Shown: positions 9,692-21,235 of the stretch, piece after piece | How the letters are laid out: each line of letters starts with the position of its first letter | Numbering within the stretch: the first letter of the stretch is position 1 | Virus record (IMG/VR): IMGVR_UViG_3300047468_000026 | Span: 1-39,521 of that record | From: a virus | DNA length: 39,521 nucleotides | Reading direction: 5' to 3' (one strand) | Made by a program: the position numbers and the translations under genes | Notes under the pieces: model-generated | The model's database searches: none | What the model was told of the DNA's origin: nothing | Seen by the model: the letters and a program-made list of their open reading frames with translations, nothing else

Positions 9692-9708
9692 GGGCGCACC
9701 ACGCGCCC
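9692..9708 (-). promoter_or_regulatory. Leader stem-loop with GUGGU loop
   Basis: In the leftward transcript GGGCGC and GCGCCC arms enclose the loop GUGGU. It lies between the promoter at 9718-9746 and the GGAGAC ribosome site of the gene at 8856-9674. The core GCGTGGTGC recurs in four other leaders (12254, 19037, 20379, 21217). Confidence 0.7.
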
Positions 9709-9717
9709 ACACCCCGG

Positions 9718-9765
9718 ACATTACAGACCCCCGTTTACGTTGTCAACTCTTTTGACGATGTCAAC
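9718..9765 (-). promoter_or_regulatory. Sigma70-like promoter with two tandem operator palindromes
   Basis: Leftward: -35 TTGACA (9741-9746), 17-base spacer, -10 TAATGT (9718-9723). Two 15-bp near-palindromes, each one base from GTTGAC-N3-GTCAAC, lie at 9733-9747 and 9751-9765, 18 bp apart. The first covers the -35. Drives the gene at 8856-9674. Confidence 0.7.
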
Positions 9766-9767
9766 AG

Positions 9768-10313
9768 CTAGATGGCGACGCCTCCCGGCGCGTCGGGCTT
9801 CGGGTGGAACTGCGGGTTGGCCGGTTCCTTCGGCCAGTCGGGGTCGCCCATCCCGTCCGGCTGCTCGACCGGCTTGTCAAGCGCCCCTAGGGGATTGACG
9901 TACTCGGCGACCCCGCCATAGGACGCATTACCAGCCCCTGTGGGCGGCGCAGCCGTGGGGGTGCCCGCTGGCATCGCCTGCTGGGCTTGCGCCTCGTCCC
10001 GCCAGCCGGGCGTGGCCGGTGGGTACAGGTGGGGCGCGGCCCGTCCGAGCGCGAAGTCCTCATGGCAATAGCCCGGCGGCCCGATGCGCCCCGAGTTGAA
10101 GGCGTACTGGTCGCGCATCGGCACGAGCAGCAGCCCGGTGACCGGCTGGTGGTGGTGCTGGCTGTACTCGTCGAGCCGCTCGGTCAGGTTCCTGATCTGG
10201 CGGTGCGCGGTGGCGAGGAAGTCGGCGAGCGTCTCGATCTTTTCGTTGGCGCTCTTTTCGTTCCAGTACTTCTCGCGCATCGGCGGGTGGAACTGAATGC
10301 TTGGGGTGTCCAT
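9768..10313 (-). CDS. Hypothetical protein with Pro-rich tail
   Basis: 181 aa. Residues about 12-55 are helical (EKYWNEKSANEKIETLADFL). The middle contains GLLLVPMRDQYAFNSGRIGP. From about 95 onward it is Pro/Ala/Gly-rich and probably disordered. Start at 10313 is supported by GAGGACTAGTTAG immediately before ATG, the shared ribosome-site cassette. The stop (TAG at 9768-9770) abuts the operators of the next unit. No family is recognised. It is the last gene before the promoter of the DUF6011-type gene. Confidence 0.7.
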   Translation of the reverse strand: MDTPSIQFHPPMREKYWNEKSANEKIETLADFLATAHRQIRNLTERLDEYSQHHHQPVTGLLLVPMRDQYAFNSGRIGPPGYCHEDFALGRAAPHLYPPATPGWRDEAQAQQAMPAGTPTAAPPTGAGNASYGGVAEYVNPLGALDKPVEQPDGMGDPDWPKEPANPQFHPKPDAPGGVAI

Positions 10314-10317
10314 CTAA

Positions 10318-10581
10318 CTAGTCCTCTTTTTTGGGTCGTACGATATTGGTGCCGGTCGAGCGCTGCACCTCGTTGCGGAACGAGCGCGCCATCATCAGCT
10401 TCCAGCCCTGCCACAGTGTGTCGTCCTGCTCGGCGAGACCGTGGCGCAGGCTACCTAACAACACCGCGCCGCTCAAGGTATCCATCTGCGCGTAGTAGCA
10501 GTTGATGAAGTCGCCCTCGATCTGAAACGCCAACCGGTAGGGCGGCTTCTTCTCGGGGGCGACGAGGTCGATCACTTTCAC
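10318..10581 (-). CDS. Conserved-looking phage protein of unknown function
   Basis: 87 aa from the GTG at 10581, which overlaps the stop of the Cro-like gene as GTGA. The ATG at 10668 lies inside that gene and is rejected. The sequence has a compact hydrophobic core: YRLAFQIEGDFINCYYAQMD then LSGAVLLGSLRHGL. Proteins with an IEGDFxNCYYA segment are familiar from phage genomes but I know of no assigned role. It is co-transcribed with the helicase and Cro-like genes. Confidence 0.7.
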   Translation of the reverse strand: MKVIDLVAPEKKPPYRLAFQIEGDFINCYYAQMDTLSGAVLLGSLRHGLAEQDDTLWQGWKLMMARSFRNEVQRSTGTNIVRPKKED

Positions 10582-10850
10582 GCAGGCATCTCCCAGTTGT
10601 GCAGGTACAGGTCGGGGCGGATCACGGCGGGCCTGACGTTCAGGAGCTTCGCCAACGGCAGCGCCCACTCGGCGGGCACCAGCGTCGAGGGCTTCTTGCG
10701 CGCCCGGATGATGTAGATAGCCACGGTGCTGTGATTCTTGTGGCCGAGTAGTTTGCCCAGTTCGACCCGCGAGTACTTGGCCGCAGCGTACACCAGAGGG
10801 TGCACGCTGCGACCGTTGAGGGTCATGGTCTGGTTGATAGATTTGCTCAT
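10578..10850 (-). CDS. Cro/XRE-like helix-turn-helix regulator
   Basis: 90 aa. Residues about 20-75 fit a Cro-like HTH: AAAKYSRVELGKLLGHKNHS is the first helix, turn and start of recognition helix, followed by TVAIYIIRARKKPSTLVP and the end LAKLLNVRPAVIRPDLYL. The VPAEW...RPDLY ending resembles Cro/YdaS-type repressors. The start overlaps the helicase stop (ATGA at 10847-10850). As the only recognisable DNA-binding regulator in the window, it is the best candidate to bind the GTTGAC-N3-GTCAAC palindromes at the early promoters. That link is inference. No integrase or partner repressor is visible. Confidence 0.7.
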   Translation of the reverse strand: MSKSINQTMTLNGRSVHPLVYAAAKYSRVELGKLLGHKNHSTVAIYIIRARKKPSTLVPAEWALPLAKLLNVRPAVIRPDLYLHNWEMPA

Positions 10851-12238
10851 GTGCGTTTGTCCTTTAAAGCATTCATTAGGGCGCTCTGGCCGCGAGCCTT
10901 GTGGCGCAGGGCGTCGAGAACATCTCCGTCGATGGTATCAACCGCGACGATGTAATGGAAGGTGACAGGCTTGGTCTGACCCTGACGCCACACGCGGGCG
11001 TTGAACTGATCGAACTCTTCGAGGTTCCAAGTCAGCGAGAACCAGCACACCGCGTTGCCACCGGCCTGCAGGTTCAGGCCATGCGCGACCGAGGTCGGAT
11101 GGGCGAGCAGCACCGGGATCGCGCCCGCGTTCCACTGGCTAACAATCTCGGCGCTCTTCGACGCTGACACGCCGCCGCCGAGGTAGGGGATCGAGGCATC
11201 ATCGAGCGCGGCGCGGATCGCGTCCACCTCGTGCTGGAAGGCGACCGCGACCAGCAGCGGCTGACCGGCCTGCTCTTCGATCAGGTCGACCAGCGCGTCT
11301 AACTTCTCGGAGTGCACCGAGTGCGCCACCTTGTCGGCGCTGATCTCGTGGCTCTTCGCGCCGTACACGCCGCCGCTGGCGATCTGGCGCAGCTTCATGC
11401 CCTTGGCTGCAGCGTTCGCCGCCGTCACGAGTCCCGACCCCACCTCGCTGAAGAATTCCTCTTCGAGTGCGTTGTACACACGGCGAGCGGCGGTGGGCAG
11501 TTCGACCTTGATGAAGTTCTCGATCTTGCGGGGCATCTGTAGATAGTCTTCTGCCCGCAGGGCCAGAGTAACGTCCGCCACCTTCGCCTGCACGCGCTCC
11601 GAGGTGTCGCGACGCGGGTGCCAGAGCGAGTAGCCATTGAATCGTTCCTCGTTGAAGTATTCGCGGCGGAAGTGGGTGACGTATTTGCCGAGACGTTCGC
11701 CGCCGTCGAGCATGAAAATCTGACCAAACAAGTTCTCGATACCGTTCGGGGCCGGGGTGCCCGTGAGAATCCACACGCGGCTGAAGCGATCCCGCAGGCG
11801 CTTCATAATTTTGTAGCGCTGGGTCTGGGTGTTCTTGATCTTGGTCGACTCGTCGAGGCAGAGCACGTCGAACGGCATCTGCTTGCGACTAGCTAGTTCC
11901 TGCTCCAGCCACGCGAGTCCCTCGTAGTTGATCACGTACACGTCGGCCTTCTCGTTCAGGCGCTCGGCCTTCTTGGGTCCATGCAGGATGACGTGCTTGA
12001 GACCGGCGAAGTCGGTCCACTTGGCGATCTCGCCGGGCCACACGATGGACATCGGGCGCAGCGGAGCCACGACCAGCATGGCCTTGGCCGCGCCGTTCTC
12101 TTTGAGCACGCTGAACGAGGCCAGCGTGGTCGAGGTCTTGCCAAGTCCCGGCTCGGCGAACAGGCCATAGCCCGGCTTTGACAGCATGTCGCCGATGGCG
12201 CGCATCTGGTAGGGGTGGGGGGTCCAGTCGATGGTCAT
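10847..12238 (-). CDS. SNF2/DEAD-like superfamily 2 helicase
   Basis: 463 aa, the usual length for phage SNF2-type helicases. The N-terminus has the Q-tip-like HPYQMRAIGDML. Walker A is AEPGLGKT (about 29-35). The DExx box is LDEST (about 128-132). Motif III is LTGTPAPNG (158-166). Motif VI is ARVWRQGQTKPV near residue 425. These are ATP-driven translocases that move along duplex DNA and probably assist replication or recombination. The start overlaps the VRR-NUC stop (ATGA at 12235-12238), a pairing often seen in phage replication clusters. A GGAGACTGAA ribosome site and leader stem-loop precede the ATG. Confidence 0.93.
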   Translation of the reverse strand: MTIDWTPHPYQMRAIGDMLSKPGYGLFAEPGLGKTSTTLASFSVLKENGAAKAMLVVAPLRPMSIVWPGEIAKWTDFAGLKHVILHGPKKAERLNEKADVYVINYEGLAWLEQELASRKQMPFDVLCLDESTKIKNTQTQRYKIMKRLRDRFSRVWILTGTPAPNGIENLFGQIFMLDGGERLGKYVTHFRREYFNEERFNGYSLWHPRRDTSERVQAKVADVTLALRAEDYLQMPRKIENFIKVELPTAARRVYNALEEEFFSEVGSGLVTAANAAAKGMKLRQIASGGVYGAKSHEISADKVAHSVHSEKLDALVDLIEEQAGQPLLVAVAFQHEVDAIRAALDDASIPYLGGGVSASKSAEIVSQWNAGAIPVLLAHPTSVAHGLNLQAGGNAVCWFSLTWNLEEFDQFNARVWRQGQTKPVTFHYIVAVDTIDGDVLDALRHKARGQSALMNALKDKRT

Positions 12239-12711
12239 TTCAGTCTCCGTAGAGGCGCACCACGCGCCACGAATTGGAGCTTGCCAGAACCAGTTGACGA
12301 TGTCAACAAGGCGCGGAAACCCTCCAGCGTGTCGATCTTTCCGGCGGGGAAACCCATGCGCGCGAAGGTCGCGAGCCAGTGGGTCTGGATTTTCGTCGGC
12401 TCCTTGCCGGGGCGCTTCAGTTCGATCAGCACCGCGAGTCCGCCGGGGCAGATCAGGATGCGATCAGGAAGGCCCACGACGCTGTAGTGCAGCTTCAGCA
12501 GCAGGCACCCTTTGGTGGTAGCTAGGAGTCGGCAGCGCCGCTCCAGCCCGCTCTCAAGTGGCTGCGGCGGGGCACGTCTTCCTGAACGCGCACCACTTGC
12601 AGTGGTTGCCGGGCTTGGTCGGAAAAACGGTCGCCGACGTGAGTCGCGCGGCGCGCTGGTCCCACTTCTTGGCGAGCTTGCCTGCGCGGTCGCGGGTGAA
12701 CGTCTTGTCAT
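12235..12711 (-). CDS. VRR-NUC family nuclease (start uncertain)
   Basis: The recognisable domain begins near 12555. It has ESGLERRCRLLATTKGCLLL, then VVGLPDRILICPGG, then LIELKRPGKEPTKIQTHWL, giving the D, E-x-K and Q positions of VRR-NUC nucleases of the PD-(D/E)XK fold. These cut branched or structured DNA and commonly sit beside SNF2 helicases in phages. The only standard start in frame is the ATG at 12711, 157 bases inside the upstream nuclease gene, and the extra N-terminus is an Arg/Ser/Pro-rich shadow. No ATG, GTG or TTG lies near 12555. Either a rare start is used or it is made as a +1 frameshift fusion to the upstream gene. A perfect operator palindrome and leader stem-loop lie inside its 3' end. 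Confidence 0.8.
   Translation of the reverse strand: MTRRSPATAQASSPRSGTSAPRDSRRRPFFRPSPATTASGARSGRRAPPQPLESGLERRCRLLATTKGCLLLKLHYSVVGLPDRILICPGGLAVLIELKRPGKEPTKIQTHWLATFARMGFPAGKIDTLEGFRALLTSSTGSGKLQFVARGAPLRRLK
12254..12268 (-). promoter_or_regulatory. Leader stem-loop with GUGGU loop
   Basis: GGCGC and GCGCC arms around the loop GUGGU in the leftward transcript, directly upstream of the CGGAGACTGAA ribosome site of the SNF2 helicase. It sits inside the end of the VRR-NUC reading frame. Confidence 0.65.
12293..12307 (-). promoter_or_regulatory. Perfect operator palindrome, weak promoter
   Basis: GTTGACGATGTCAAC, a perfect GTTGAC-N3-GTCAAC site. A leftward TTGACA is at 12301-12306, but the hexamers 16-18 bases further on (GCAAGC, CAAGCT) are poor -10 boxes. 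It lies within the VRR-NUC coding frame and upstream of the SNF2 gene. Confidence 0.6.
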
Positions 12712-13195
12712 GCGGCTCCTCGTGATCGAGATACCAGAGTTCGGCGAGCACGGTGTGCACGTCGTCGAACATGGCGAAGGTCATCAGCGCGTACACCTCC
12801 ATCTGCTCGATGTTGGCGCGGTACGGTTTGCCGGTCTTGAAGTCGATGACTCTAACCACTGACAACTGCGGCCAGTAGAACGCATCGATCTTGCCGCGCA
12901 TCCACAGGTCCTCGCCCTCGCGGCGCGGGTTCCAGCCCTCCGAGAATTCCCACATCTGTTCGGCGCTGGCGTGCTTCAACTTCAGCGCCTCGATCTGGTT
13001 AGCCCAGACGGGCGTGATAACCGGCGGCAGCGAGTCGAGGCTTCCTAACAGAAACTTTTCAATGTGTTCGTGTATCTGTGTGCCTCGACTCGCTGCGGGT
13101 GCTTCGATGCCGGGCACCTTCTTGTTGTAAGCGTAATCATATTTTGCGGGGCAATCCTCGAAGTCCTTCAATCGTGAGACGGTCCAGTGCGTCAC
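12554..13195 (-). CDS. Cas4-like PD-(D/E)XK exonuclease with Fe-S cysteine pattern
   Basis: 213 aa from a GTG at 13195 overlapping the upstream stop as GTGA. Features of the PDDEXK_1/Cas4-like group: VSRLKDFEDCPAKYDY (Cys15), GTQIHEHIE (His42), MRGKIDAFYW (Asp104), RVIDFKTGKPY (Asp118, Lys120), QMEVYALM (Gln131), and the C-terminal CKWCAFRKTC (Cys199, 202, 208). The four cysteines fit a 4Fe-4S cluster as in Cas4 and AddB. It probably resects DNA ends in phage recombination or replication. It lies between DNA polymerase and VRR-NUC. Its TGA stop abuts the VRR-NUC domain in the +1 frame. Confidence 0.88.
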   Translation of the reverse strand: MTHWTVSRLKDFEDCPAKYDYAYNKKVPGIEAPAASRGTQIHEHIEKFLLGSLDSLPPVITPVWANQIEALKLKHASAEQMWEFSEGWNPRREGEDLWMRGKIDAFYWPQLSVVRVIDFKTGKPYRANIEQMEVYALMTFAMFDDVHTVLAELWYLDHEEPHDKTFTRDRAGKLAKKWDQRAARLTSATVFPTKPGNHCKWCAFRKTCPAAAT

Positions 13196-13386
13196 TTGCT
13201 CAGTACCTTGCGCAAGTTCTTCGCGGCGATCTGGCAGTGATCAGAGCACTCCAAGGCGCGCACCGTGTGTAGTTGGAGCGCCTCGGCGAGCGCGGCCTCG
13301 AAGCCCTCGGGCGACATCCAATCCTTGTAACCATGTCTGTCCGGGTGCGCGTGCTTCTCCCAGAGGCGGTCGGATAGTTTGCTCAC
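13192..13386 (-). CDS. Hypothetical small protein
   Basis: 64 aa from a GTG at 13386, overlapping neighbours at both ends (GTGA). The sequence MSKLSDRLWEKHAHPDRHGY is charged, with one Cys/His pair (ECSDHC near residues 47-51). It is not recognised. Tight coupling between the short gene at 13383 and the Cas4-like nuclease suggests membership of the replication operon. Confidence 0.65.
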   Translation of the reverse strand: MSKLSDRLWEKHAHPDRHGYKDWMSPEGFEAALAEALQLHTVRALECSDHCQIAAKNLRKVLSK

Positions 13387-13556
13387 GGCGGTCCCTCGGT
13401 GGCGAGCCAGCGTTGCACCAGCGCCCAGAGCCTAGTTAGTTCGGCCTCACTCACGGCGCGGTTGAAGGTGAGCATCACCTCGTCGCAGGCGTCCGGCACG
13501 TTCCAGCGGATCGCGTGGACTAACTTCAGCTTTTCCTTGTACGACTTCTCCATCAT
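13383..13556 (-). CDS. Hypothetical 57-aa protein downstream of DNA polymerase
   Basis: Starts MMEKSYKEKLKLVHAIRWNV at 13556, overlapping the polymerase stop as ATGA. Longer readings reach into the polymerase and are rejected. Helical, with no recognised family. The overlap on both sides supports real translation. It is shorter than most gene-finding cutoffs. Confidence 0.6.
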   Translation of the reverse strand: MMEKSYKEKLKLVHAIRWNVPDACDEVMLTFNRAVSEAELTRLWALVQRWLATEGPP

Positions 13557-15382
13557 TTCGGTTTCACCATGTTGCCGAAGTTCTGCCCAAAGGTCGGGTC
13601 GGTCTTCACCGGCACGTCGAGCTTGAAGGCGTTGCGCATGGCGAGATCGAGCAGCGCGCTGGCCGACTTCTCCGTGCCCTTGGGCGCGCAGCCTACCAAC
13701 TGATCGTGCACCGTCAACAGGAAGCGCGTGTCGGTGCCCCTGATCTGCGGCCACCACAGGCGCATGGCTTCCTTGGTCTGATCGGCGCTCGATCCTTGGA
13801 TCAGGTAGTTCAAGAGCACGTACTCGTAGGTCTGGGTGCTGCCTGTGTCCTTGTCGATGCGCGCGGCGGGCGAGTAGTAAGTCCGCCCACCTATCGTGGT
13901 GACACAGTTGCCCGAGCGCCCGATGCCATTCACCTCGCGCTGCAGTTCCTTCACCGATGGCAGCGCATTGTCGTAGGCGTTGATCAGCGCGTACGCCGCG
14001 TCGATGGTGATGCCTAACTTCAGCGCGAGGCCGCGCGCACCCATGCCGTATATCTTCGCGAAGTTCACCGTCTTGGTGGGCTTGCGGCCTAACTCGATCC
14101 CTGACTGGTCGAGGATCAATTCGCTGACGAAGTCGTGCACGTCGAGCGCGGGGTTGTCGCGGTACGCCTGCGCCAGCACGCCGTCCTCGTAGTGCGCGAG
14201 GAACTTCAGTTCCTGCTGGCTGTAGTCGCGCGAGAACAGGACGTGCCCCTTGGGCGCGACTAGATAGGAGCGCAGGTTCGGCAGCGTGAACGCCTTGTTG
14301 CGCACGCCCATCGCCGTCATGTACGCCAGTAGTTCGTCGTACTTGTCGGGGTTGGTGGTGTTCTGCATGTTAGGCGACGACGACAGCCGCCCGGTCTTGG
14401 CTCCGTAGTCGGAGTAGTCACGCACCTGATTCCAGTTGCAGTGCAGAGCCTCGCCGTGCAGGACCCACGGGCGCATGTACATCTGCAGGCACTGCACCAG
14501 CGCCGAGCGATAGAGCAGCAAACCCTTGACCTTGCTGTCGGGCAGCGCCGACATCAGCGCTTCCTTGGCGGTAGATAGGCGACCGGTCGGCGTGGTCGGC
14601 AGCTTGATCTTCTTGTTCTTCTGCAGCGCGTCTGCGAGTTCATCCCCGGAGTCGAAGTTGGCGGGCGCGGTGAAGCCGATCTCGCGCTTCCACATGGTGC
14701 GCAGGTGGGCCTCGACGGTGGCGAGCACGGCCTCGTAGTTGGCGGTGTCTGCGCGCAGCCGCTTGTGATCGAGCGGTATGCCACGCGCCGAGTTGTCTAA
14801 CAACATCGGCATGATCTCGCACTCGCGCCGATAGGCTGACCACAGGCCGCGCTCCCTGAGCATGGGTGCGAAGTGCTTGAACAGCGCCATCGAGCGGGTG
14901 TTGTCGCCGCTGGCGTACGGGGCCACGACATCGCCGGGTGCCTTGCTGATCAGCGCGCCGCACTGCTTGTCGGTCGGCGCTCGTCCTTTGTCGGTGAGGT
15001 AGTTAGCCTTCAGCCAGTCGCGCACCGCGTCCTGCTCGGCGGGTGCCATACCGAGATACTGCACGGCGAGTGGCTTTAAAGACAGTTCGCCGTACGGCTC
15101 CAGCAGGAAGGCCATGATCATCGTGTCGTTGATCTGCTCGCCGTCGGGCAGTGGCAGGTTCAGCTTCTCGTGCGCCACGGCCAAGTCGAAGGCCGCGTTG
15201 TGGCAGACGATCTCGCCGGACCAGACGCCTTGCACGGCGGCCTTGCCGTCGGCGACGCTGGCATTGTTGTTCTTGGGGTGACCCCACGAAACGTAGGTGT
15301 CGCCGACGGCGACACCTACGGGGATCGGTGGGTAGTTAGGGCGAGACTCAATGGCCTCGGTCTCGAAATCTACTGGCTGCAT
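13553..15382 (-). CDS. Family A DNA polymerase with 3'-5' exonuclease
   Basis: 609 aa from the ATG at 15382, preceded by GGGAGGAAGAA; the earlier in-frame ATG at 15580 lies in the upstream gene. The exonuclease starts at once: VDFETEA carries the Exo I Asp-x-Glu. The polymerase motifs are motif A RDYSQQELKFLAH (about 385-397), motif B KTVNFAKIYGMG (437-448) and motif C LTVHDQLV (about 556-563). Motif C reads His-Asp-Gln where this family normally has His-Asp-Glu; codon 561 is CAG. It is shorter than T7 polymerase (704 aa) and is the phage replicase. No thioredoxin-binding insert is obvious. It is followed by four overlapping leftward genes. Confidence 0.95.
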   Translation of the reverse strand: MQPVDFETEAIESRPNYPPIPVGVAVGDTYVSWGHPKNNNASVADGKAAVQGVWSGEIVCHNAAFDLAVAHEKLNLPLPDGEQINDTMIMAFLLEPYGELSLKPLAVQYLGMAPAEQDAVRDWLKANYLTDKGRAPTDKQCGALISKAPGDVVAPYASGDNTRSMALFKHFAPMLRERGLWSAYRRECEIMPMLLDNSARGIPLDHKRLRADTANYEAVLATVEAHLRTMWKREIGFTAPANFDSGDELADALQKNKKIKLPTTPTGRLSTAKEALMSALPDSKVKGLLLYRSALVQCLQMYMRPWVLHGEALHCNWNQVRDYSDYGAKTGRLSSSPNMQNTTNPDKYDELLAYMTAMGVRNKAFTLPNLRSYLVAPKGHVLFSRDYSQQELKFLAHYEDGVLAQAYRDNPALDVHDFVSELILDQSGIELGRKPTKTVNFAKIYGMGARGLALKLGITIDAAYALINAYDNALPSVKELQREVNGIGRSGNCVTTIGGRTYYSPAARIDKDTGSTQTYEYVLLNYLIQGSSADQTKEAMRLWWPQIRGTDTRFLLTVHDQLVGCAPKGTEKSASALLDLAMRNAFKLDVPVKTDPTFGQNFGNMVKPK

Positions 15383-15395
15383 TTCTTCCTCCCAG

Positions 15396-15415
15396 AAAAA
15401 AGCCCGAAGCGGAGC
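15396..15415 (-). terminator. Possible weak terminator or attenuator
   Basis: In the leftward transcript a short hairpin (GCTC and GGGC arms, loop CGCTTC) is followed by six T. It lies in the 100-base gap between the Cys-motif gene and DNA polymerase. The stem is only 4 bp with one wobble, so it would act partially at most. Confidence 0.35.
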
Positions 15416-15482
15416 CACGTTCGGAGCCGACGTGTTGGTGTCAGGCGCGTGGAGTCGAAGACATCGCCGCGCCGTCTCACTC

Positions 15483-16292
15483 CTAGAACTTCCGACCGCG
15501 ACGCGGGGGTGGGGCAGCCTTCGCCGCCGGAGCTTCCTCGAACTCTGGATAGGGCATGACCATGAGGCGCTCGGCCTCATCGACGCGCGCCGCGATGGCG
15601 TCGAACAGTTCGTCGTTCTCGCTGTCGATGACGCTCGCCACGAAGCTGACCGCGTACTGGGACTTGGGGTCTGGGCGGTTCTCCAGAGTAGTTAGCTTCG
15701 TCCACGTCGGCTGCTCGTCGCCGAAGATCGCCTCGACGTAGGAGCGGAAGGTCTTGGCGTTGAGCACTGAGAGCCGCGCCTGCCAGATGGTGGCGGACTG
15801 CACGGCGGCGGGACCTTTGGCGAGCACGTCGGCGTGGATGAAGGCGAGCCGCGAGCCTTCGCGGCAGGCCTTGCCCTTGCCGTTGGCAGCGGAGCCAAAC
15901 TCGGCGAGGCGACAGGTGGCGCAGGTGTCGGACTGCGGCACAGCGGACTTCTCGTGCGGCCTCTCGCCGTCGAAGCTGTAGCAGTCGGGCGACTCGGTGG
16001 CGTTCGGATCGTAGGCCTTCGAGTAGTAAGTGCGCTCGAAGCCGTGAGCGAGCAGCACGAGCGGCAGCGGGTTCGCGATCTGGTTGCCGCCGACACTGAT
16101 CACGCCGCCCTTGAACGAGAGGAAGTTGCCGCCCATCTGCGGCAGCTTGTTCAAGGTTTGGCGGCTGGTGTTGATCGACTGCTTGGCGCGCTCGCGCCAT
16201 GCGCCGGGAGTAGTTAGGGCGGTGGTCTTGCGCACGGCGACTTCGGTGCCGGGCTTCTTCGGTGGGGTCTTCTTGGCTGGCATGCGTCTCAT
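15483..16292 (-). CDS. Cys-motif phage protein, possible ssDNA-binding protein
   Basis: 269 aa from the ATG at 16292 (AAGGACCCACAC precedes it). The N-terminus is Lys/Pro-rich. The core contains GNFLSFKGGVISVGGNQI. A cysteine-containing stretch follows: CYSFDGERP, then SDTCATCRLAEFGSAANGKG, then KACREGSRLAFI. The C-terminus is Ala/Pro-rich and ends RRGRKF. Phage proteins with a CxxC...GS...GKGKxCK/R...R pattern are often encoded next to DNA polymerase. A single-strand-binding role is suggested by place and length, not by a diagnostic motif. A 100-base gap separates it from the polymerase. Confidence 0.75.
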   Translation of the reverse strand: MRRMPAKKTPPKKPGTEVAVRKTTALTTPGAWRERAKQSINTSRQTLNKLPQMGGNFLSFKGGVISVGGNQIANPLPLVLLAHGFERTYYSKAYDPNATESPDCYSFDGERPHEKSAVPQSDTCATCRLAEFGSAANGKGKACREGSRLAFIHADVLAKGPAAVQSATIWQARLSVLNAKTFRSYVEAIFGDEQPTWTKLTTLENRPDPKSQYAVSFVASVIDSENDELFDAIAARVDEAERLMVMPYPEFEEAPAAKAAPPPRRGRKF

Positions 16293-16306
16293 GTGTGGGT
16301 CCTTCG

Positions 16307-16327
16307 GTTACGTGTTACGAGTTACGA
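16307..16327. repeat. Three tandem 7-bp repeats
   Basis: Three consecutive 7-mers GTTACGW (GTTACGT, GTTACGA, GTTACGA) in the 81-base gap upstream of the Cys-motif gene. They could bind a protein or shape the leader; nothing else nearby explains them. The rest of the gap contains one CTTTAAA word at 16372. Confidence 0.6.
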
Positions 16328-16373
16328 GCGGCGCGATCCTACGCCTTGTTGTCTGCGTCATCAATCGATGCCT

Positions 16374-16811
16374 TTAAAGCCTGCGCGGCTGCTTCTCCAA
16401 CACGCGGAACTTGCGCCCGCAGTGGCAGGATGGCACGCCGGTCTTCAGCCACTTGCCGGAAGTCCGCACCACGTAGCCGCAGCCACGACAGGCGAGCTTC
16501 AACATGCGAGTAGTTTGGTGCGGCATACCCGGCACGCGGTAGATGTTCTTGATAGGCCGCAGCTTCTGGATCATCTTCAGTTCGAGCGCGGCGGCCTGCG
16601 CGCGGGTCAGCTTCCTGCGAGTCTTGCGCACCTCGATCTTCGCGCCGTGCTTCTTGGCGGTAGCTAGTTGTCGGTGCCACGCACGGATGTGTGTGCCCTG
16701 CCCGTTGGTGCGTGCACCGACGGACATGTGCTTCTTCGCGCGGTCGCCAGAGCCTGCGCCGACGTACCAGAGTTGGCCGTCGACGAGGTACTGGTAGACG
16801 TAGTAGTTCAT
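16374..16811 (-). CDS. GIY-YIG-type nuclease with C-terminal zinc ribbon
   Basis: 145 aa. The start YYVYQYLVDGQLWYVGAGSG with Arg24 matches the GIY-YIG core (the first motif reads VYQY, the second YVG). A helix LTRAQAAALELKMIQKLRPI supplies the conserved Glu (about 77), then KNIY the Asn. From residue 104 there is a separate zinc ribbon: LACRGCGYVVRTSGKWLKTG then PSCHCG (Cys108, 111, 129, 131). Nearly the same ribbon ends the SprT-like protein at 21252. The product probably nicks or cuts DNA, for instance in host DNA breakdown or recombination. The start overlaps the upstream gene as ATGA. Confidence 0.8.
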   Translation of the reverse strand: MNYYVYQYLVDGQLWYVGAGSGDRAKKHMSVGARTNGQGTHIRAWHRQLATAKKHGAKIEVRKTRRKLTRAQAAALELKMIQKLRPIKNIYRVPGMPHQTTRMLKLACRGCGYVVRTSGKWLKTGVPSCHCGRKFRVLEKQPRRL

Positions 16812-17017
16812 GCCTTCGGCTCCGTGTTGACGACACCGTCGACCATGTCGGTGATCAGGTAGGGCTTCAGATCGTGGCGGGCGCGCACCGTGGAGTGCGT
16901 GAGCTTGTTAGCCACCACCTCCCGGCACACCACGTACATCTGGTCGGTGCTCTGGTTCATCTCGTCGATCCAGAAGACGCGGTCCTTCTCGTCCTTGTGC
17001 AGTACGACGGTGCTCAC
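16808..17017 (-). CDS. Hypothetical small protein
   Basis: 69 aa from a GTG at 17017, overlapping the upstream stop as GTGA. The ATG at 17107 is inside the upstream gene and is rejected. The sequence STVVLHKDEKDRVFWIDEMN then YVVCREVVANKL looks like a small folded protein; no family is recognised. It is part of an unbroken overlapping gene string. Confidence 0.65.
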   Translation of the reverse strand: MSTVVLHKDEKDRVFWIDEMNQSTDQMYVVCREVVANKLTHSTVRARHDLKPYLITDMVDGVVNTEPKA

Positions 17018-17430
17018 TTCTTGCTCCTCGTGGTGATAGATAGCTCGGTCTTGACGCCGGGCCGCACGCCGGGGATCGTGACCTCGTCGTCCCAGCGCTC
17101 CTTGCACGCACTAACTACCGGCTGCTTGCGCACAAGGTCCCATGCCTTGTTCTTGCCGACGAACTCGAAGAAGGCGCGGTCGTCGAAGAGTTCGGCGAAG
17201 GTGTTGCGGCGGATCGCAATCGTGGCGAGCTTGGTCGACACGGCTTCCTGCCGCGCGTCGAGCATGGCGGCGAGCAGCGTCTCTTCGAGATCGTTGCGCG
17301 CCTGCTTGAGTGGTTCGAGCGCGGCCTCCATGGCGCGGCGCTTCTTGTGGTAGGCGGCCTCGGCGCGGTACAGGTTGTCAGCCAGTCCCGAGATCACGTT
17401 GGCAGGGGCGTAGGTTTTCTTAGCAGTCAT
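17014..17430 (-). CDS. Conserved-looking phage protein, N-terminal coiled coil
   Basis: 138 aa. Residues about 15-60 are helical (NLYRAEAAYHKKRRAMEAAL) and probably coiled coil. The C-terminal half has LATIAIRRNTFAELFDDRAF, a WDLVRKQPV segment, then VTIPGVRPGVKTELSI. An ending with IPGV before a short beta strand is seen in many phage proteins of unknown function. It overlaps the upstream gene by 11 bases. Confidence 0.7.
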   Translation of the reverse strand: MTAKKTYAPANVISGLADNLYRAEAAYHKKRRAMEAALEPLKQARNDLEETLLAAMLDARQEAVSTKLATIAIRRNTFAELFDDRAFFEFVGKNKAWDLVRKQPVVSACKERWDDEVTIPGVRPGVKTELSITTRSKK

Positions 17431-17641
17431 CGCATTTCTCCGCAGGTGTGTTGATGTCGTCAGCAGTATGCATGCCGCTGTTGATCAGAGTCAACAGCGC
17501 GTTGGCAATATCATCATAGGGCTTGTTGCGTTCCTTCGAGACCTTGGGGCGCGTCTGCCAGTACTGGATCAGGTAGCGCTTGCACGCTTCGATGTTCCCG
17601 CGCTGGAATGCGCGCACCGAGTTTCTCAGGTGCTCGATCAT
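17420..17641 (-). CDS. Hypothetical small protein
   Basis: 73 aa from the ATG at 17641, overlapping the upstream stop as ATGA; longer readings run into other genes. It is helical, MIEHLRNSVRAFQRGNIEAC, ending with Cys/Asp residues (EKCDDC). No family is recognised. An imperfect GTTGAT/GTCAAC repeat inside it (17474-17489) has a 4-base spacing and is not counted as an operator. Confidence 0.65.
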   Translation of the reverse strand: MIEHLRNSVRAFQRGNIEACKRYLIQYWQTRPKVSKERNKPYDDIANALLTLINSGMHTADDINTPAEKCDDC

Positions 17642-17886
17642 GCTTCCCCCTCCAAGGTAGCTAGGGCCAGTTGTACGTAGAGCTTCGCGATGCCGCGCGT
17701 CCTGCCTTTCTCGGCAGGCCACTTGGCGATGGCGTTGCGTAGATAGACGGCGGCGTCCTTGCCGTTGATGGCGTGGGCGTGCGGGGCCAGTACGTGCCCC
17801 GCCTCCTTCGCCTTGCGCTTGGCCTTCAGCGTTGCCTTGAACTTGGCAATCGCCTCGGGGGTGCGTTTGTATCCTTTGGGTGGCAT
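17638..17886 (-). CDS. Hypothetical basic protein
   Basis: 82 aa, very Lys/Ala-rich at the N-terminus (PPKGYKRTPEAIAKFKATLK), with a short helical C-terminus. The N-terminal part resembles the NUMOD-type or AT-hook-like basic segments seen in phage DNA-binding proteins, but this is weak. Start and stop overlap the neighbours (TGATG at 17886; ATGA at 17638). Confidence 0.65.
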   Translation of the reverse strand: MPPKGYKRTPEAIAKFKATLKAKRKAKEAGHVLAPHAHAINGKDAAVYLRNAIAKWPAEKGRTRGIAKLYVQLALATLEGEA

Positions 17887-18089
17887 CAGCGCTTCCTCCC
17901 GTCACCGTCGAACCACTCGACGAGTCGCGACGAGAACACCTTGAGGCGTCCACGGCGGAAGAGAATCTGCGCTGGGCGCTTCTTCTTCCAGTAGTAGCGA
18001 GCGCTGCGACAGGCCTGACACAGCGCGATGTGCTCGCGCTGGGTCTCGAACTCCACGCCACACTCGGCGGTCTCGCAGGTCTTCTTCAT
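17886..18089 (-). CDS. Small zinc-finger-like protein
   Basis: 67 aa. CETAECGVEF followed by ALCQACRSARYYWKKKRP gives a Cys-x4-Cys ... Cys-x2-Cys pattern, likely a zinc ribbon. The rest is basic, ending FDGDGRKR. It overlaps the DUF3846 gene upstream as ATGA. It may bind nucleic acid; the exact role is unknown. Confidence 0.7.
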   Translation of the reverse strand: MKKTCETAECGVEFETQREHIALCQACRSARYYWKKKRPAQILFRRGRLKVFSSRLVEWFDGDGRKR

Positions 18090-18469
18090 TCCATGTCCCC
18101 CGTCCAGAGCAGCGCGTCGCCGACGATCAGCAGGCCGGTCGACTGCATGGTAGTTAGCGGGTGCGGCGGCTCCTTGGTCAGGTCGTTGTAGCGCAGCTTG
18201 TTCAGGCGCACGCCGCGCAGTTGGCGGTTGCCTGCGATGGCCGAGGCGCGGGCGTTGGGCTTCTTGTCCGACGCCAGCCCGTTCTCGTCGAAGAACAGGT
18301 GGTGCACCTTGTCCTCGAAGAGCACCGAGAGGTGCTCGATGGTGTCGCAGCCGATGGCCTTGTACATGTAGTCGAGCGTCGGTGCGCCGTACTCCAGCTT
18401 GCCGTACTGCTCCGGGGGCACCTCTTGATAGGTGCCCCCTTCGCTGATCAGATAAAGTTTGTTCGTCAT
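18086..18469 (-). CDS. DUF3846-type protein
   Basis: 127 aa. The pattern YKAIGCDTIEHLSVLFEDKV, then LFFDENGLASDKKPNARASA, then TGLLIVGDALLW matches the DUF3846 layout: an IEHL-type strand, a DEnGL segment, an N-x-x-A helix and a final I-x-G-D strand. The function of the family is unknown; it is common in phages and plasmids. The start is preceded by GGAGTAGTTAGACC, the shared ribosome-site cassette. Confidence 0.75.
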   Translation of the reverse strand: MTNKLYLISEGGTYQEVPPEQYGKLEYGAPTLDYMYKAIGCDTIEHLSVLFEDKVHHLFFDENGLASDKKPNARASAIAGNRQLRGVRLNKLRYNDLTKEPPHPLTTMQSTGLLIVGDALLWTGDME

Positions 18470-18476
18470 GGTCTAA

Positions 18477-18719
18477 CTACTCCTCGTTGATCTTCTGAAT
18501 GGCGTCTAACTTCTTCTCGATGCGGTGCAGGGCGGCGCGGCTCTTCTGCCAGCGGTTCAGGGCGCGGGACAGTTCCGCCTCCATCTGCTGGTGGCGGGCC
18601 TGCGCCTCGACGTAGGCGTTGCCCGGATCGCGGCGGCTGCCCTTGCGCGGCTTCTTGGCGTAGGCCGCAGCGGCGCAAGCCTTCGACCATTCGCTCAGGC
18701 CGATGGTGGGGTCGTTCAT
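18477..18719 (-). CDS. Hypothetical coiled-coil protein
   Basis: 80 aa from the ATG at 18719, overlapping the stop of the acidic coiled-coil gene as ATGA. The C-terminal half (EAELSRALNRWQKSRAALHR) is a clear coiled coil. The N-terminus is MNDPTIGLSEWSKACAAAAY. No family is recognised. It may partner the adjacent coiled-coil protein. Confidence 0.65.
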   Translation of the reverse strand: MNDPTIGLSEWSKACAAAAYAKKPRKGSRRDPGNAYVEAQARHQQMEAELSRALNRWQKSRAALHRIEKKLDAIQKINEE

Positions 18720-19024
18720 TCCACTGCCTCCAGTAGTTCGATGGCTTCCTGCAGGTCGTCCTTGATCTCGACGATCTTGGTCGCGATGTCTTCGAGCTTG
18801 CCGTAGGCCTCGTCTAACTTCTCGACGGCGTTGGCTTGAGCTTCGCCCTTCTCGCCGTCGACGACCTTCTCGGACATGCTGTCGAGCACGTCGCGCTCGG
18901 CGTCGCGGATATCGCTGACCTCGTCCTTGATCGAGTCGGCGTCGCGGAGGTTCTCGACCTCGGCTAACAACAACGTCGCCTGATGCGCGAGGTCCTTGAT
19001 CTTTTGCAGTGTTCGTCTTTTCAC
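18716..19024 (-). CDS. Hypothetical acidic coiled-coil protein
   Basis: 102 aa from the GTG at 19024, supported by GGAGACCCCAA just upstream; the earlier in-frame start lies in the leader stem-loop. It is almost wholly helical and acidic with heptad-like spacing (LDEAYGKLEDIATKIVEIKD). It is first gene after the promoter at 19067-19095, so it is likely well expressed. Function is unknown. Confidence 0.7.
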   Translation of the reverse strand: MKRRTLQKIKDLAHQATLLLAEVENLRDADSIKDEVSDIRDAERDVLDSMSEKVVDGEKGEAQANAVEKLDEAYGKLEDIATKIVEIKDDLQEAIELLEAVE

Positions 19025-19036
19025 TTGGGGTCTCCT

Positions 19037-19055
19037 GCCCGGCACCACGCCGGGC
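19037..19055 (-). promoter_or_regulatory. Leader stem-loop with GUGGU loop
   Basis: GCCCGGC and GCCGGGC arms (7 bp) around GUGGU in the leftward transcript, followed by AGGAGA and the start at 19024. Identical in sequence to the stem-loop at 20379-20397. Confidence 0.75.
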
Positions 19056-19066
19056 TTCAGTTGACA

Positions 19067-19095
19067 ATTATACAGAGATGGTTGACGGTGTCAAC
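19067..19095 (-). promoter_or_regulatory. Consensus sigma70 promoter with operator palindrome
   Basis: Leftward: TTGACA (19089-19094), 16-base spacer, TATAAT (19067-19072), the strongest promoter match in the window. The perfect operator GTTGACGGTGTCAAC (19081-19095) overlaps the -35. A further half-site GTTGAC lies at 19060-19065. The word CTTTAAA follows at 19099. Confidence 0.85.
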
Positions 19096-19100
19096 GTGCT

Positions 19101-19307
19101 TTAAAGCGACTGCAGCCCCTCCCCGTCTACCCACTTGTAGTTCACCGGATCGTCGGACTCGACCGCGCGGCAGTCGACGACTAACAACCAGCGATCCATC
19201 AGATTGCGGGCGCTCTTCTTGGCCTCCTCCTCGGTCGCGAAACGCAGCGCGTTGTCGTACCAGTTCGGGTCGGTTCCAGTCTGCACTTCGGGCTTCCAGC
19301 TTTTCAT
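19101..19307 (-). CDS. Small conserved phage protein of unknown function
   Basis: 68 aa: KPEVQTGTDPNWYDNALRF, then ATEEEAKKSARNLMDRW, then ESDDPVNYKWVDG. A W-x-x-NALRFATxxEA ... RW ... DPVNYxW layout recurs in many small phage and bacterial proteins of unknown role. The start at 19307 has GGAGTAGTTAG directly before ATG. It ends just upstream of the promoter at 19067-19095. Confidence 0.72.
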   Translation of the reverse strand: MKSWKPEVQTGTDPNWYDNALRFATEEEAKKSARNLMDRWLLVVDCRAVESDDPVNYKWVDGEGLQSL

Positions 19308-19311
19308 CTAA

Positions 19312-19494
19312 CTACTCCTGAATGAATTCGTATTTCATCCCAGCGCGGCGCTGGGCGTCGGATCGGTTCGAGTTCTCGCGGTTGCAGAAGTCTCGCGCCT
19401 CGGTCAGCGTGAGACCCCTGCGCACCGTGGTCTTCTTGGCGCTGGCGAACTCCTCGAAGTTGCGCGCCGCGCGCTTGAATACCTTGTACGTCAT
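19312..19494 (-). CDS. Small conserved phage protein of unknown function
   Basis: 60 aa, basic: SAKKTTVRRGLTLTEARDFC followed by an Asn/Arg-rich segment and KYEFIQE. A GLT(L)xEA...C pattern in a short basic protein is frequent in phages. GGAGTAGTTAG directly precedes the ATG at 19494. Confidence 0.7.
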   Translation of the reverse strand: MTYKVFKRAARNFEEFASAKKTTVRRGLTLTEARDFCNRENSNRSDAQRRAGMKYEFIQE

Positions 19495-19498
19495 CTAA

Positions 19499-19714
19499 CT
19501 ACTCCTTCACATGCTTGTTGAAAAAATCGATCTTGAGCTTCTCGGGTGTGATGGCCCAGTAGCCGTACCGCTTGCCGCTCGTGTCTTCGATGCGGCGGCA
19601 CACGCCGCCCCTAGCTACCTGATACGCAGCGACCGACAGCAGGCTCTCCAGCTTGGCGCGGTCGAGTTCGCCGTCGCCGTCGATCTCGATGTGGACGATC
19701 AGGGTGTTAGCCAC
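19499..19714 (-). CDS. Hypothetical small protein
   Basis: 71 aa from a GTG at 19714 that overlaps the end of the upstream 57-aa gene by 8 bases. ANTLIVHIEIDGDGELDRAK followed by a helix and RYGYWAITPEKLKIDFF suggests a small alpha/beta fold. No family is recognised. Confidence 0.62.
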   Translation of the reverse strand: MANTLIVHIEIDGDGELDRAKLESLLSVAAYQVARGGVCRRIEDTSGKRYGYWAITPEKLKIDFFNKHVKE

Positions 19715-19880
19715 GGATCACCCCCGCCGCGATCAGGCTCTGCGCCTGCCGACCAAACCAGCCCTGCAGGCGGTAGGCCAAGCCGGTGTCGTGCAGGTAC
19801 TGCCACGCCTCGATGATCTGCTCCTCGCTGTCGGCCTCGATGAAGCCCTCGGCCAAACCCGTTGCGGTGTATGCGTCCAT
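19707..19880 (-). CDS. 57-aa phage protein, short-ORF class
   Basis: ATG at 19880, preceded by GGAGCACATTACA; TAA at 19707-19709 inside the next gene's start. The translation contains EGFIEADSEEQIIEAWQYL, then DTGLAYRLQGWFGRQAQSLI and ends AAGVIRG. The AWQYL...DTGL...LQGWFGRxAxxLI...G pattern is common in small phage proteins of unknown function. It is too short for many gene finders, but the ribosome site, overlap and family-like pattern support it. Confidence 0.72.
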   Translation of the reverse strand: MDAYTATGLAEGFIEADSEEQIIEAWQYLHDTGLAYRLQGWFGRQAQSLIAAGVIRG

Positions 19881-19905
19881 TGTAATGTGCTCCAGTAGTT
19901 AGTTG

Positions 19906-20367
19906 TTAGGCGACTAGGATCGTCAGGCCAGCGGCCTTGATCTTGTCGGCGATCACGGTGATGTACTGCGCCGAGACCGCGCGCTCCGGGCCGTTGTAGT
20001 TGTACTCGTACATGTTGGCGTTCAGCCAAACGCGACCGGCGGTGGTGTAGGCGCGCAGGCTGTCGCCGCGATGGTAGAAGTCGGGGCGCTCGGGGCCGAC
20101 GAACTTGCTAGGCACCACGACGCTGCGGTCGTTCTCGATCACGCGGTCGAGCGTGTCGCAGTACACCTCGATGTCGACCAGCGCGGTGCCTTCGATGATG
20201 CGGACCACGTAGGTGCGCGCGTCGTCGTAGCTGCCCTTCGGCTTGTGCTCGTGGCTGATCGAAATGATCTGGCTGCCGTAGCGCTTCACGATGCGCGCGA
20301 TCTTGTGCGCGTCGCCGTTGAGGATGCTGAAGGTCTTGGTCAGGCGGAACTTGCTAGAGGCTTTCAT
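19906..20367 (-). CDS. Hypothetical 153-aa early protein
   Basis: ATG at 20367 preceded by GGAGAATCAG. Mixed alpha/beta: MKASSKFRLTKTFSILNGDA, a central TYVVRIIEGTALVDIEVYCD strand region, then YYN and IADKIKAAGLTILVA. The ADKIKAAGLTI ending could be a helix-strand unit. No family is recognised. First gene behind the promoter at 20408-20436. Confidence 0.7.
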   Translation of the reverse strand: MKASSKFRLTKTFSILNGDAHKIARIVKRYGSQIISISHEHKPKGSYDDARTYVVRIIEGTALVDIEVYCDTLDRVIENDRSVVVPSKFVGPERPDFYHRGDSLRAYTTAGRVWLNANMYEYNYNGPERAVSAQYITVIADKIKAAGLTILVA

Positions 20368-20378
20368 CTGATTCTCCT

Positions 20379-20397
20379 GCCCGGCACCACGCCGGGC
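20379..20397 (-). promoter_or_regulatory. Leader stem-loop with GUGGU loop
   Basis: Seven-base-pair stem (GCCCGGC with GCCGGGC) and GUGGU loop in the leftward transcript, then AGGAGA. Same sequence as at 19037-19055. Confidence 0.75.
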
Positions 20398-20407
20398 TGA
20401 TGTGTGG

Positions 20408-20436
20408 ACTATACAGGGTCTGTTGACGCTGTCAAC
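20408..20436 (-). promoter_or_regulatory. Sigma70-like promoter with operator palindrome
   Basis: Leftward: TTGACA (20430-20435), 16-base spacer, TATAGT (20408-20413). Perfect operator GTTGACGCTGTCAAC at 20422-20436. The following 12 bases (AACTGCGTCACA on the plus strand, to 20448) also occur at the divergent region, so the shared block is 27 bp. Confidence 0.85.
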
Positions 20437-20452
20437 AACTGCGTCACAGTTT

Positions 20453-20662
20453 CTACTCTTCGTACCGATCCTGCCGGGCCTGAAATTCGTAGGCGTCGGT
20501 GTTGATCTCGACGCGGCGCGCAGGCGTCAGGCCGTCGCGGCGCATGTCTTCCATGGCGAGCATCTCGGTGAAGTCGTTGCCTTCGGGGATGCGGTAGGCG
20601 TAGCGCGTGCGGAAGCGGAAGACCTGCGCGGCTGAGTGGATTAAAAATTCGTCGTGATCCAT
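20453..20662 (-). CDS. Hypothetical small early protein
   Basis: 69 aa, charged: MDHDEFLIHSAAQVFRFRTR then EGNDFTEMLAMEDMRRDGL. ATG at 20662 with GGAGACTCAA upstream, the same ribosome-site style as the other leader modules. No family is recognised. It ends just before the promoter at 20408-20436. Confidence 0.68.
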   Translation of the reverse strand: MDHDEFLIHSAAQVFRFRTRYAYRIPEGNDFTEMLAMEDMRRDGLTPARRVEINTDAYEFQARQDRYEE

Positions 20663-20674
20663 TTGAGTCTCCTG

Positions 20675-20695
20675 CCCCGCCCGAGGGCGGCGGGG
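20675..20695 (-). promoter_or_regulatory. Leader stem-loop before the gene at 20453
   Basis: CCCCGCC and GGCGGGG arms with a 7-base loop, directly upstream of AGGAGACTCAA. Same position as the other leader hairpins but lacking the GUGGU loop. Two TAGTTAG words lie just beyond it (20696 and 20707). Confidence 0.5.
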
Positions 20696-20709
20696 TAGTT
20701 AGGTGGTAG

Positions 20710-21045
20710 TTAGGCCTGCTGCTTGAGGAACTCGACGCTGGCTTCCAGCGCGGCGATGTTCTCGGCGAGGGCTTCGATGCGGCTCTGCACGCGGCCACGA
20801 TCACCGCCGCCGTTCTGCACCCACTTGGCGACCCGGTAGGCCTCACCCATGGTGCGGATCACGCTGGCGTTGGCCGAGCCGGTCGCACCGGGCTGGCTGT
20901 AGTTGGCACCGGCGAACTTGATCCAGAGCGGGCCGACCTTGACGACCCAGCCGTTGGGGTTCTCGGCCTTGAGGGCTTTGAGTTCGACGATCTGCTGCTC
21001 GAAGTCGGCGATGAAGTCGGCTAGGTCTTTCTGGATGGCGATCAT
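20710..21045 (-). CDS. Hypothetical first leftward early protein
   Basis: 111 aa from the ATG at 21045, downstream of GGAGACCGCCAAC. Upstream in-frame codons lie in the promoter and are rejected. Helical at both ends (DLADFIADFEQQIVELKALK and IEALAENIAALEASVEFLK), with a central beta-like NGWVVKVGPLWIKFAGANYS. Probably self-associating. It is the first gene transcribed leftward from the divergent region, a position often held by host-takeover proteins; that is inference only. Confidence 0.72.
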   Translation of the reverse strand: MIAIQKDLADFIADFEQQIVELKALKAENPNGWVVKVGPLWIKFAGANYSQPGATGSANASVIRTMGEAYRVAKWVQNGGGDRGRVQSRIEALAENIAALEASVEFLKQQA

Positions 21046-21065
21046 GTTGGCGGTCTCCGTTGGTG

Positions 21066-21080
21066 GCAGCAACTCGCTGC
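21066..21080 (-). promoter_or_regulatory. Leader stem-loop before the gene at 20710
   Basis: GCAGC and GCTGC arms with a 5-base loop in the leftward leader, followed by CGGAGACC. Position conserved with the other leaders; loop sequence differs (GAGUU). Confidence 0.45.
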
Positions 21081-21092
21081 TCGATGGGGGCC

Positions 21093-21121
21093 ATTCTACA
21101 GGTCCTGTTGACGCTGTCAAC
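21093..21121 (-). promoter_or_regulatory. Leftward early promoter with operator
   Basis: TTGACA (21115-21120), 16-base spacer, TAGAAT (21093-21098). Perfect operator GTTGACGCTGTCAAC at 21107-21121 covers the -35. Drives the leftward early block beginning with the gene at 20710-21045. Confidence 0.85.
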
Positions 21122-21190
21122 AACTGCGTCACACTTTTGAACGCTTTAAAGCATCTGCCGAAAGTGTGACGCAGTTGTTGACAGCGTCAA
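21108..21190. repeat. Perfect 30-bp inverted repeat of the divergent control region
   Basis: Arms 21108-21137 and 21161-21190 are exact reverse complements. The 23-base spacer holds the palindrome GCTTTAAAGC at 21143-21152, almost at the centre. Each arm carries one -35/operator plus the extended TGTGACGCAGTT element, so leftward and rightward promoters are mirror images. Confidence 0.9.
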
Positions 21191-21206
21191 AGGAACCTGC
21201 TTTAAA
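21178..21206 (+). promoter_or_regulatory. Rightward early promoter with operator
   Basis: TTGACA (21178-21183), 17-base spacer, TTTAAA (21201-21206) as -10, or TTAAAT one base on. The operator GTTGACAGCGTCAAA (21177-21191) differs from the consensus at the last base only. Drives the SprT-like gene and probably the primase-helicase. Confidence 0.7.
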
Positions 21207-21216
21207 TGCACACATC

Positions 21217-21235
21217 GGAGGGCGTGGTGCCTTCC
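21217..21235 (+). promoter_or_regulatory. Leader stem-loop with GUGGU loop (rightward)
   Basis: GGAGGGC and GCCTTCC arms (one G-T pair) around GUGGU, then CGGAGTCTGAA and the ATG at 21252. This is the only copy on the rightward transcript and shows the loop is kept in the RNA sense. Confidence 0.7.

Follow-up and report, generated by a model that had tools for sequence, protein, structure and literature searches.

Five leaders of early genes in the virus record IMGVR_UViG_3300047468_000026 (39,521 bp; this whole stretch of DNA is called the window below) carry an RNA hairpin with one and the same loop, GUGGU, and each of the five lies directly behind a predicted sigma-70-type promoter. The hairpins start 9-11 nucleotides (nt) past the -10 box and are therefore near the predicted 5' end of the mRNA. 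In a clade of four phages the stems covary around this loop. We consider, with moderate confidence, that the hairpin is a promoter-linked, 5'-terminal stem-loop that protects or boosts early mRNA, and that its clade-specific loop is probably recognised by a factor.

A GUGGU hairpin behind five predicted early promoters

An earlier note on this DNA, made from the sequence alone, had listed five such hairpins, all of which are present where it placed them, in the sense of the downstream gene and with the loop GUGGU:

9692-9708, minus strand: leader hairpin GGGCGC-GUGGU-GCGCCC, upstream of the DUF6011-domain gene
12254-12268, minus strand: leader hairpin GGCGC-GUGGU-GCGCC, upstream of the SNF2-type helicase gene
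19037-19055, minus strand: leader hairpin GCCCGGC-GUGGU-GCCGGGC
20379-20397, minus strand: leader hairpin GCCCGGC-GUGGU-GCCGGGC, an identical copy of 19037-19055
21217-21235, plus strand: leader hairpin GGAGGGC-GUGGU-GCCUUCC, upstream of the SprT-like gene at 21252

In every case the loop has GC/GC closure and is followed by (C/A)GGAG(A/T). The note had GGAG following at once, which was slightly too strong, since the gap from stem to GGAG is 1-7 nt (7, 5, 1, 1 and 6 nt in the leaders at 9692, 12254, 19037, 20379 and 21217). The expected number of copies of GCGTGGTGC in the window is 1.08 and the actual number six, the sixth (37330) being intragenic. When hairpins with a stem of at least 5 and with GGAG and a start codon behind were counted, the loop GTGGT was found six times (the five leaders, of which those at 19037 and 20379 are identical copies and hence not independent, and a coding hairpin at 17916). 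In contrast, dinucleotide shuffles of the window averaged 0.013 under the same rule and never exceeded 1, and every other pentaloop stayed below two occurrences in the window.

The earlier note tied these hairpins to start codons and missed their link to promoters and their place near the predicted mRNA 5' end. The predicted early promoters are as follows:

9718-9765, minus strand: promoter/operator of the DUF6011 unit, with -35 TTGACA at 9741-9746, -10 TAATGT at 9718-9723 and palindrome copies at 9734-9747 and 9752-9765
12278-12307, minus strand: promoter/operator of the helicase unit, with palindrome GTTGACATCGTCAAC at 12293-12307 and a weak -10, CAAGCT, at 12278-12283
19067-19095, minus strand: promoter TTGACA-16-TATAAT (12/12), within palindrome GTTGACACCGTCAAC
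20408-20436, minus strand: promoter TTGACA-16-TATAGT (11/12), within palindrome GTTGACAGCGTCAAC
21093-21121, minus strand: sixth early promoter, TTGACA-16-TAGAAT, with palindrome GTTGACAGCGTCAAC
21177-21206, plus strand: promoter/operator of the SprT-like gene, GTTGACAGCGTCAAA, with -10 TTTAAA at 21201-21206

The top scores, 12, 11 and 11 of 12, are those of the promoters before the leaders at 19037, 20379 and 21066, respectively. The -35 box TTGACA lies within a repeated palindrome, GTTGACannGTCAAC, which has 36 matches with at most two mismatches against 7.8 by chance (both strands counted).

The loop is kept in three further phages

The hairpin is kept in three further phages, giving 14 clear leaders across four phages. 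In G003 (IMGVR 3300043493_000025; polymerase 79% and helicase 87% identical to the window) all four orthologous leaders have the loop GUGGU; the gene of the 20379-20397 leader (the 20367 gene unit) is missing from this genome. The G003 stem is the same at the 9692 leader and has one additional C-G pair at the counterpart of 19037-19055, while at the SprT gene it reads GAAAGGC/GCCUUUC against GGAGGGC/GCCUUCC in the window, a compensating pair change. G001 (IMGVR 3300037307_000118; polymerase 63%) has three leaders with the core GGCAUGGUGCC, two of them orthologous (helicase and DUF6011). Here the counterpart of the 9692 leader is GGGGCGGC-AUGGU-GCCGCCUC; the helicase-leader hairpin at 12254 has orthologues both in G003 and, with a different stem, in G001. 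Indeed, GCRTGGTGC occurs three times in the 27.9 kb of G001, every copy in such a leader. Finally, G014 (IMGVR 3300045968_000062; major head protein 76%, terminase 31%) has two AUGGU leaders and a third, imperfect AUGGU hairpin at 15431 (minus strand).

The hairpin is retained despite promoter change, since the G001 leaders lack the palindrome and the two G014 leaders lie behind TGCTATTAT and TGCTATACT boxes. Throughout the clade it begins 8-12 nt past the predicted -10 (9-12 nt in G003, 8-10 nt in G001 and 10-11 nt in the two G014 leaders), the transcription starts being predicted ones. Loop conservation in relatives, on which the earlier note had staked its reading, is thus found in a close clade of four phages.

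When the same searches were run on about 95 other related records, the matches were scattered and, for one pattern, close to the level of the reversed-pattern control. Those inspected were not such leaders, and as many of these records are fragments, absence there is weak evidence. Scans of viral and bacterial contigs with DNA patterns of palindrome plus hairpin gave, beyond G003, nothing but chance matches, and a scan with one common stem returned mainly coding matches and a few leader-like cases with a weak promoter or none. Helicase leaders of relatives outside the clade have no such hairpin directly before the start. The element was not found in any cultured phage. By DNA polymerase, the nearest cultured relatives are Stenotrophomonas phage AXL3 and Pseudoxanthomonas phage PW916, at about 35% identity; the paper on AXL3 says nothing of promoters or hairpins. 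Literature searches found no report of the element, their results being general or unrelated besides the paper on cluster K SAS discussed below.

Stems covary around an invariant loop

The leaders were modelled as a 7-bp stem with a triloop, UGG, closed by R-U (R = G or A). Over 12 leaders, nine of them distinct, 96.8% of cells are paired, and there are 15 double-change cells against 5.2 in shuffles and a covariation score of 0.746 against 0.244 shuffled (at most 0.333 in slid versions); the leaders are related and two of those in the window are identical, so that the shuffle counts overstate independence. Adding the two clear G014 hairpins gave 98.1% paired and a score of 0.630 against 0.232 shuffled. 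Covariation among related phages had been proposed in the earlier note as a check, and over the 14 leaders of the four phages it is borne out, with covarying stems and an invariant loop. Because both hold, the alignment supports the view that the leader hairpin is an RNA-level element.

The hairpin top, C-R-UGG-U-G, and the next G-C pair are fixed in all 14 leaders, and only R varies: it is G in 9/9 leaders of the window and G003 and A in 5/5 of G001 and G014. Since R-U pairs with either G or A, this change also fits pure structure. We rejected the idea that the loop is extra stable, as GUGGU ranks 512 and AUGGU 320 among the 1024 pentaloops on each stem tested. GUGGU is thus energetically average, giving no energetic reason for its conservation, and a reader molecule is therefore favoured. 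The turnover of promoter and stem sequences around a loop that does not change likewise favours a loop reader. A further idea, that this is a generally popular leader loop, was also rejected: among 119 leader-like CCGGC-N5-GCCGG hairpins from viral contigs, RTGGT is not one of the loops that recur, and xTGGT is the loop of three of the 108 that have an open frame.

Hairpins behind predicted promoters in other phages

The wider pattern was sampled in 151 promoter-plus-leader regions from relatives of the polymerase, helicase and SprT genes. A strong hairpin is present in 33 of them, compared with 7.7 in shuffles; 24 hairpins start 4-12 nt past the -10 where 2.9 are expected, with little excess elsewhere. 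Most of the hairpin-bearing leaders (26/33) lie outside the clade. There the loops are unrelated, even within one genome, as in AXL3 (agcta, aatctc) and PW916 (cactgga, agcta), both of which carry 5' hairpins with loops other than that of the clade. Promoter-hairpin-Shine-Dalgarno leaders with other loops were also seen in the distant phages L020-L022, L036, L038, L077, L084, L102, L114 and L120. The general feature is therefore a hairpin close behind a promoter, to which one clade adds a fixed loop. Many of the more distant relatives carry a stem-loop at this site although their loops are unrelated, which points to a role of the stem's position that does not depend on the loop. The earlier note read the set as an RNA recognition element; the covarying stem and invariant loop agree with this, but it overlooked both the promoter linkage and the loop-independent role of stem position.

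Gene context and other elements

On the plus strand the window carries terminase, portal, major head, tail and amidase genes. The early genes occupy the minus strand at about 8.8-21.1 kb (DUF6011, the SNF2-type helicase, PF00176, downstream of the 12254-12268 hairpin, a PD-(D/E)XK nuclease, a family-A DNA polymerase and small genes), and from 21.25 kb the plus strand carries the SprT-like gene and a primase/helicase. Two more leaders that the earlier note had placed beside the five do have hairpins, with other loops:

21066-21080, minus strand: leader hairpin GCAGC-GAGUU-GCUGC, in the leader of the sixth early promoter, same place, other loop
20675-20695, minus strand: hairpin CCCCGCC..GGCGGGG, before an internal cistron, with no promoter and no shared loop

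Counting them as the same element is not supported, neither being found at the orthologous place in the closest relative, G003, and that at 20675 having no promoter. A promoterless hairpin at 17907-17925 (minus strand; TCGTCGA-GTGGT-TCGACGG) lies within the C-terminal codons (VEWFD) of a gene and is kept in G003; its conservation probably reflects coding constraint. Directly before the polA start, at 15401-15416 (minus strand), is an attenuator-like hairpin with a T tract, and a hairpin with a T-rich tract is found at the matching place in G003 and G001 as well.

The two divergent early promoters (21094-21207) make a long inverted repeat, TTGACGCTGTCAACAACTGCGTCACACTTT ... AAAGTGTGACGCAGTTGTTGACAGCGTCAA, and TGTGACGCAGTTGTTGACAGCGTCAAC is also found upstream of the 20436 promoter. 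Rfam 15 gave 0 matches at the gathering threshold over the whole window; a permissive search gave only microRNA and small RNA matches far under the gathering scores, all within 21094-21207, because the promoters there form this inverted repeat. A small basic protein encoded at 10581-10850 (minus strand), with a helix-turn-helix-like sequence and weak similarity to phage repressors (E = 0.02), is kept in G003 and G001. It would fit as a candidate reader of the DNA palindrome GTTGACannGTCAAC rather than of the RNA hairpin. Another palindrome, CTTTAAAG, has 15 copies in the window against 0.08 expected, spread genome-wide from 623 to 36012; L123 has it too, while the form enriched in G003 and G001 is GTTTAAAC, the flanking letters differing by lineage. 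CTAACTA/TAGTTAG has 42 copies in window positions 1-39521 against 0.74 expected (for example at 870, 1187, 10314, 19308 and 20696), and CTATCTA, CTAGCTA and CTAACAA are likewise strongly enriched; CTAACTA/TAGTTAG is enriched also in G003 (L010) and falls outside the top words of G001 and G002.

Comparison with known leader elements

A 5' leader hairpin is already known in kind; the shared-loop set tied to promoters is a new form of it. The leaders described here resemble those of ompA and papA of E. coli and of T7 gene 10, where a stem-loop stands ahead of the Shine-Dalgarno sequence (SD) and behind the promoter, at the start of the mRNA or close to it, a start that is here a predicted one. 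Stem-loops of this type raise mRNA stability or expression (PMC3997798, PMC6146998). Here, unlike in ompA and T7 gene 10, each early promoter has its own hairpin, and the loop stays the same from unit to unit and from phage to phage. The start-associated sequences (SAS) and ESAS of cluster K mycobacteriophages, of unknown function, are similar: they too recur directly before the starts of many genes within a single group of phages and include inverted repeats specific to a lineage. However, SAS has one constant 13-mer, GGGATAGGAGCCC, and ESAS is an inverted repeat of 17 bp whose arms are conserved in sequence (PMC3203893), whereas here the stems vary, the loop is fixed and the element is linked to predicted promoters. 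The 13-mer GGGATAGGAGCCC directly upstream of a gene start was found in none of the window leaders.

Operators of the T4 gene 43 and MS2 type likewise have, close to the ribosome-binding site, a hairpin whose loop is conserved; in the T4 gp43 operator the loop is kept between T4 and RB69 (PMC3014915). Those operators stand at one gene with a known protein, in contrast to five promoters and a putative reader here. In lambda boxB/nut and HK022 put, an RNA hairpin lies close behind early promoters. By comparison, no boxA-like element was seen in the leaders described here, the hairpin abuts the SD, the loop is different and there is one hairpin per unit.

Discussion

The results are consistent with a model in which each early unit is headed by a cassette: a sigma-70 promoter, here with an operator palindrome over its -35 box, then the stem-loop near the predicted 5' end, then the SD. 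Most likely the stem-loop would act in cis as a 5'-terminal protector or enhancer, hindering 5'-end-dependent decay, and would keep the 5' segment folded away from the SD, like the 5' stem-loops of ompA, papA and T7 gene 10. As with those leaders, it is the stem rather than the loop sequence that appears to be under selection, given the covariation and the positional enrichment with unrelated loops elsewhere. There are precedents for this: a folded 5' end stabilises an mRNA because RNase E and RppH depend on a single-stranded one (PMC3997798), and the T7 gene 10 stem-loop placed before the SD in Cupriavidus necator raised expression 1.5- to 3-fold together with mRNA abundance (PMC6146998). The sequences show the structure, its covariation, the invariance of the loop and its place behind predicted promoters, whereas the transcription starts, a stabilising effect in cis on decay or translation and a loop reader in trans are inferred. 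Within the clade of four phages, the hairpin top C-R-UGG-U-G is fixed, probably because a host or phage factor also contacts the loop, for which the conserved loop of the T4 gp43 operator is a precedent (PMC3014915).

Several observations weigh against this model. If +1 lies about 7 nt past the -10, some 2-5 unpaired 5' nt are left, perhaps enough for pyrophosphohydrolase access; the -10 of the helicase leader (CAAGCT) is weak; and the stem does not raise predicted SD accessibility in a consistent way across leaders. Insulation of the SD as the sole role was rejected on account of this inconsistency between leaders. Furthermore, the loop is invariant yet energetically average, while a pure stabiliser needs no fixed loop, and to our knowledge the known 5' stabilising stem-loops need none.

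In another reading, a phage or host RNA-binding protein would recognise C-R-UGG-U-G beside the SD and coordinately turn early-gene translation down (or up), much as MS2 coat protein or T4 gp43 act at their operator hairpins. Such an operator is a serious but rather doubtful alternative. In its favour, a conserved loop tops variable, covarying stems, as in operators of the MS2 and T4 gp43 type, and loop and closing pairs are kept across 14 leaders with differing promoters. The loop is of average energy; its first position changes together in all leaders of a phage, which co-evolution with a reader would predict; the SD lies a short way beyond the hairpin; and the T4 gp43 operator, with its conserved loop, is a precedent (PMC3014915). 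However, no clade-specific RNA-binding protein was recognised among the proteins checked, repression of all early units, the replication helicase included, needs a rationale, and the same-place hairpins of other relatives share no loop within a genome, which points to a loop-independent role of the stem. We therefore place the protector or enhancer ahead of a dedicated operator, holding the former with middling confidence.

The remaining explanations are much less probable. A nut- or put-like signal, read by RNA polymerase or an antiterminator so as to pass terminators such as the attenuator-like hairpin before polA, would suit hairpins that occur only just behind early promoters and on both strands of the divergent promoter region, and the pre-polA hairpin with its T-rich tract does recur in three phages. 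We nevertheless think it improbable: reading the leaders revealed no boxA-like element, Rfam gave no match, the hairpins abut the SD instead of sitting within a long leader, and the loops of other relatives vary widely. Slightly less probable again, and already disfavoured, is the copying of a promoter-plus-leader cassette with a loop merely inherited and without function. The identity of the 19037 and 20379 hairpins and the absence of the 20367 gene unit from G003 are what such copying would leave, but the remaining stems diverge in a covarying manner around an unchanged loop, even under other promoters, and drift would have hit the loop too. Very improbable is that GCRTGGTGC is a protein-binding site in double-stranded DNA around +15 of the promoter, with no RNA structure; although the 9-mer is conserved, in a single orientation and at a fixed distance from the -10, compensating stem-pair changes are unexpected for a duplex-DNA site, and in other phages the same place is held by hairpins without the 9-mer.

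Returning to the stem-loop as protector or enhancer, we tentatively suggest a broader and distinctly less certain possibility, that a single protein (or RNA) reads the R-UGG-U loop on every early transcript. The early genes would then form a phage-wide post-transcriptional regulon, switched or protected all together, and loop and reader would co-evolve, with GUGGU in one pair of phages and AUGGU in the other.

If the favoured model is correct, this phage of GC-rich bacteria would possess a compact, portable cassette of operator, promoter, 5' hairpin and SD that makes early messages behave alike. The fixed loop over changing stems would offer a sharp handle for finding the RNA reader. More generally, hairpins near predicted promoters in diverse phages suggest that hairpin-headed early mRNAs may be a common, overlooked phage strategy.

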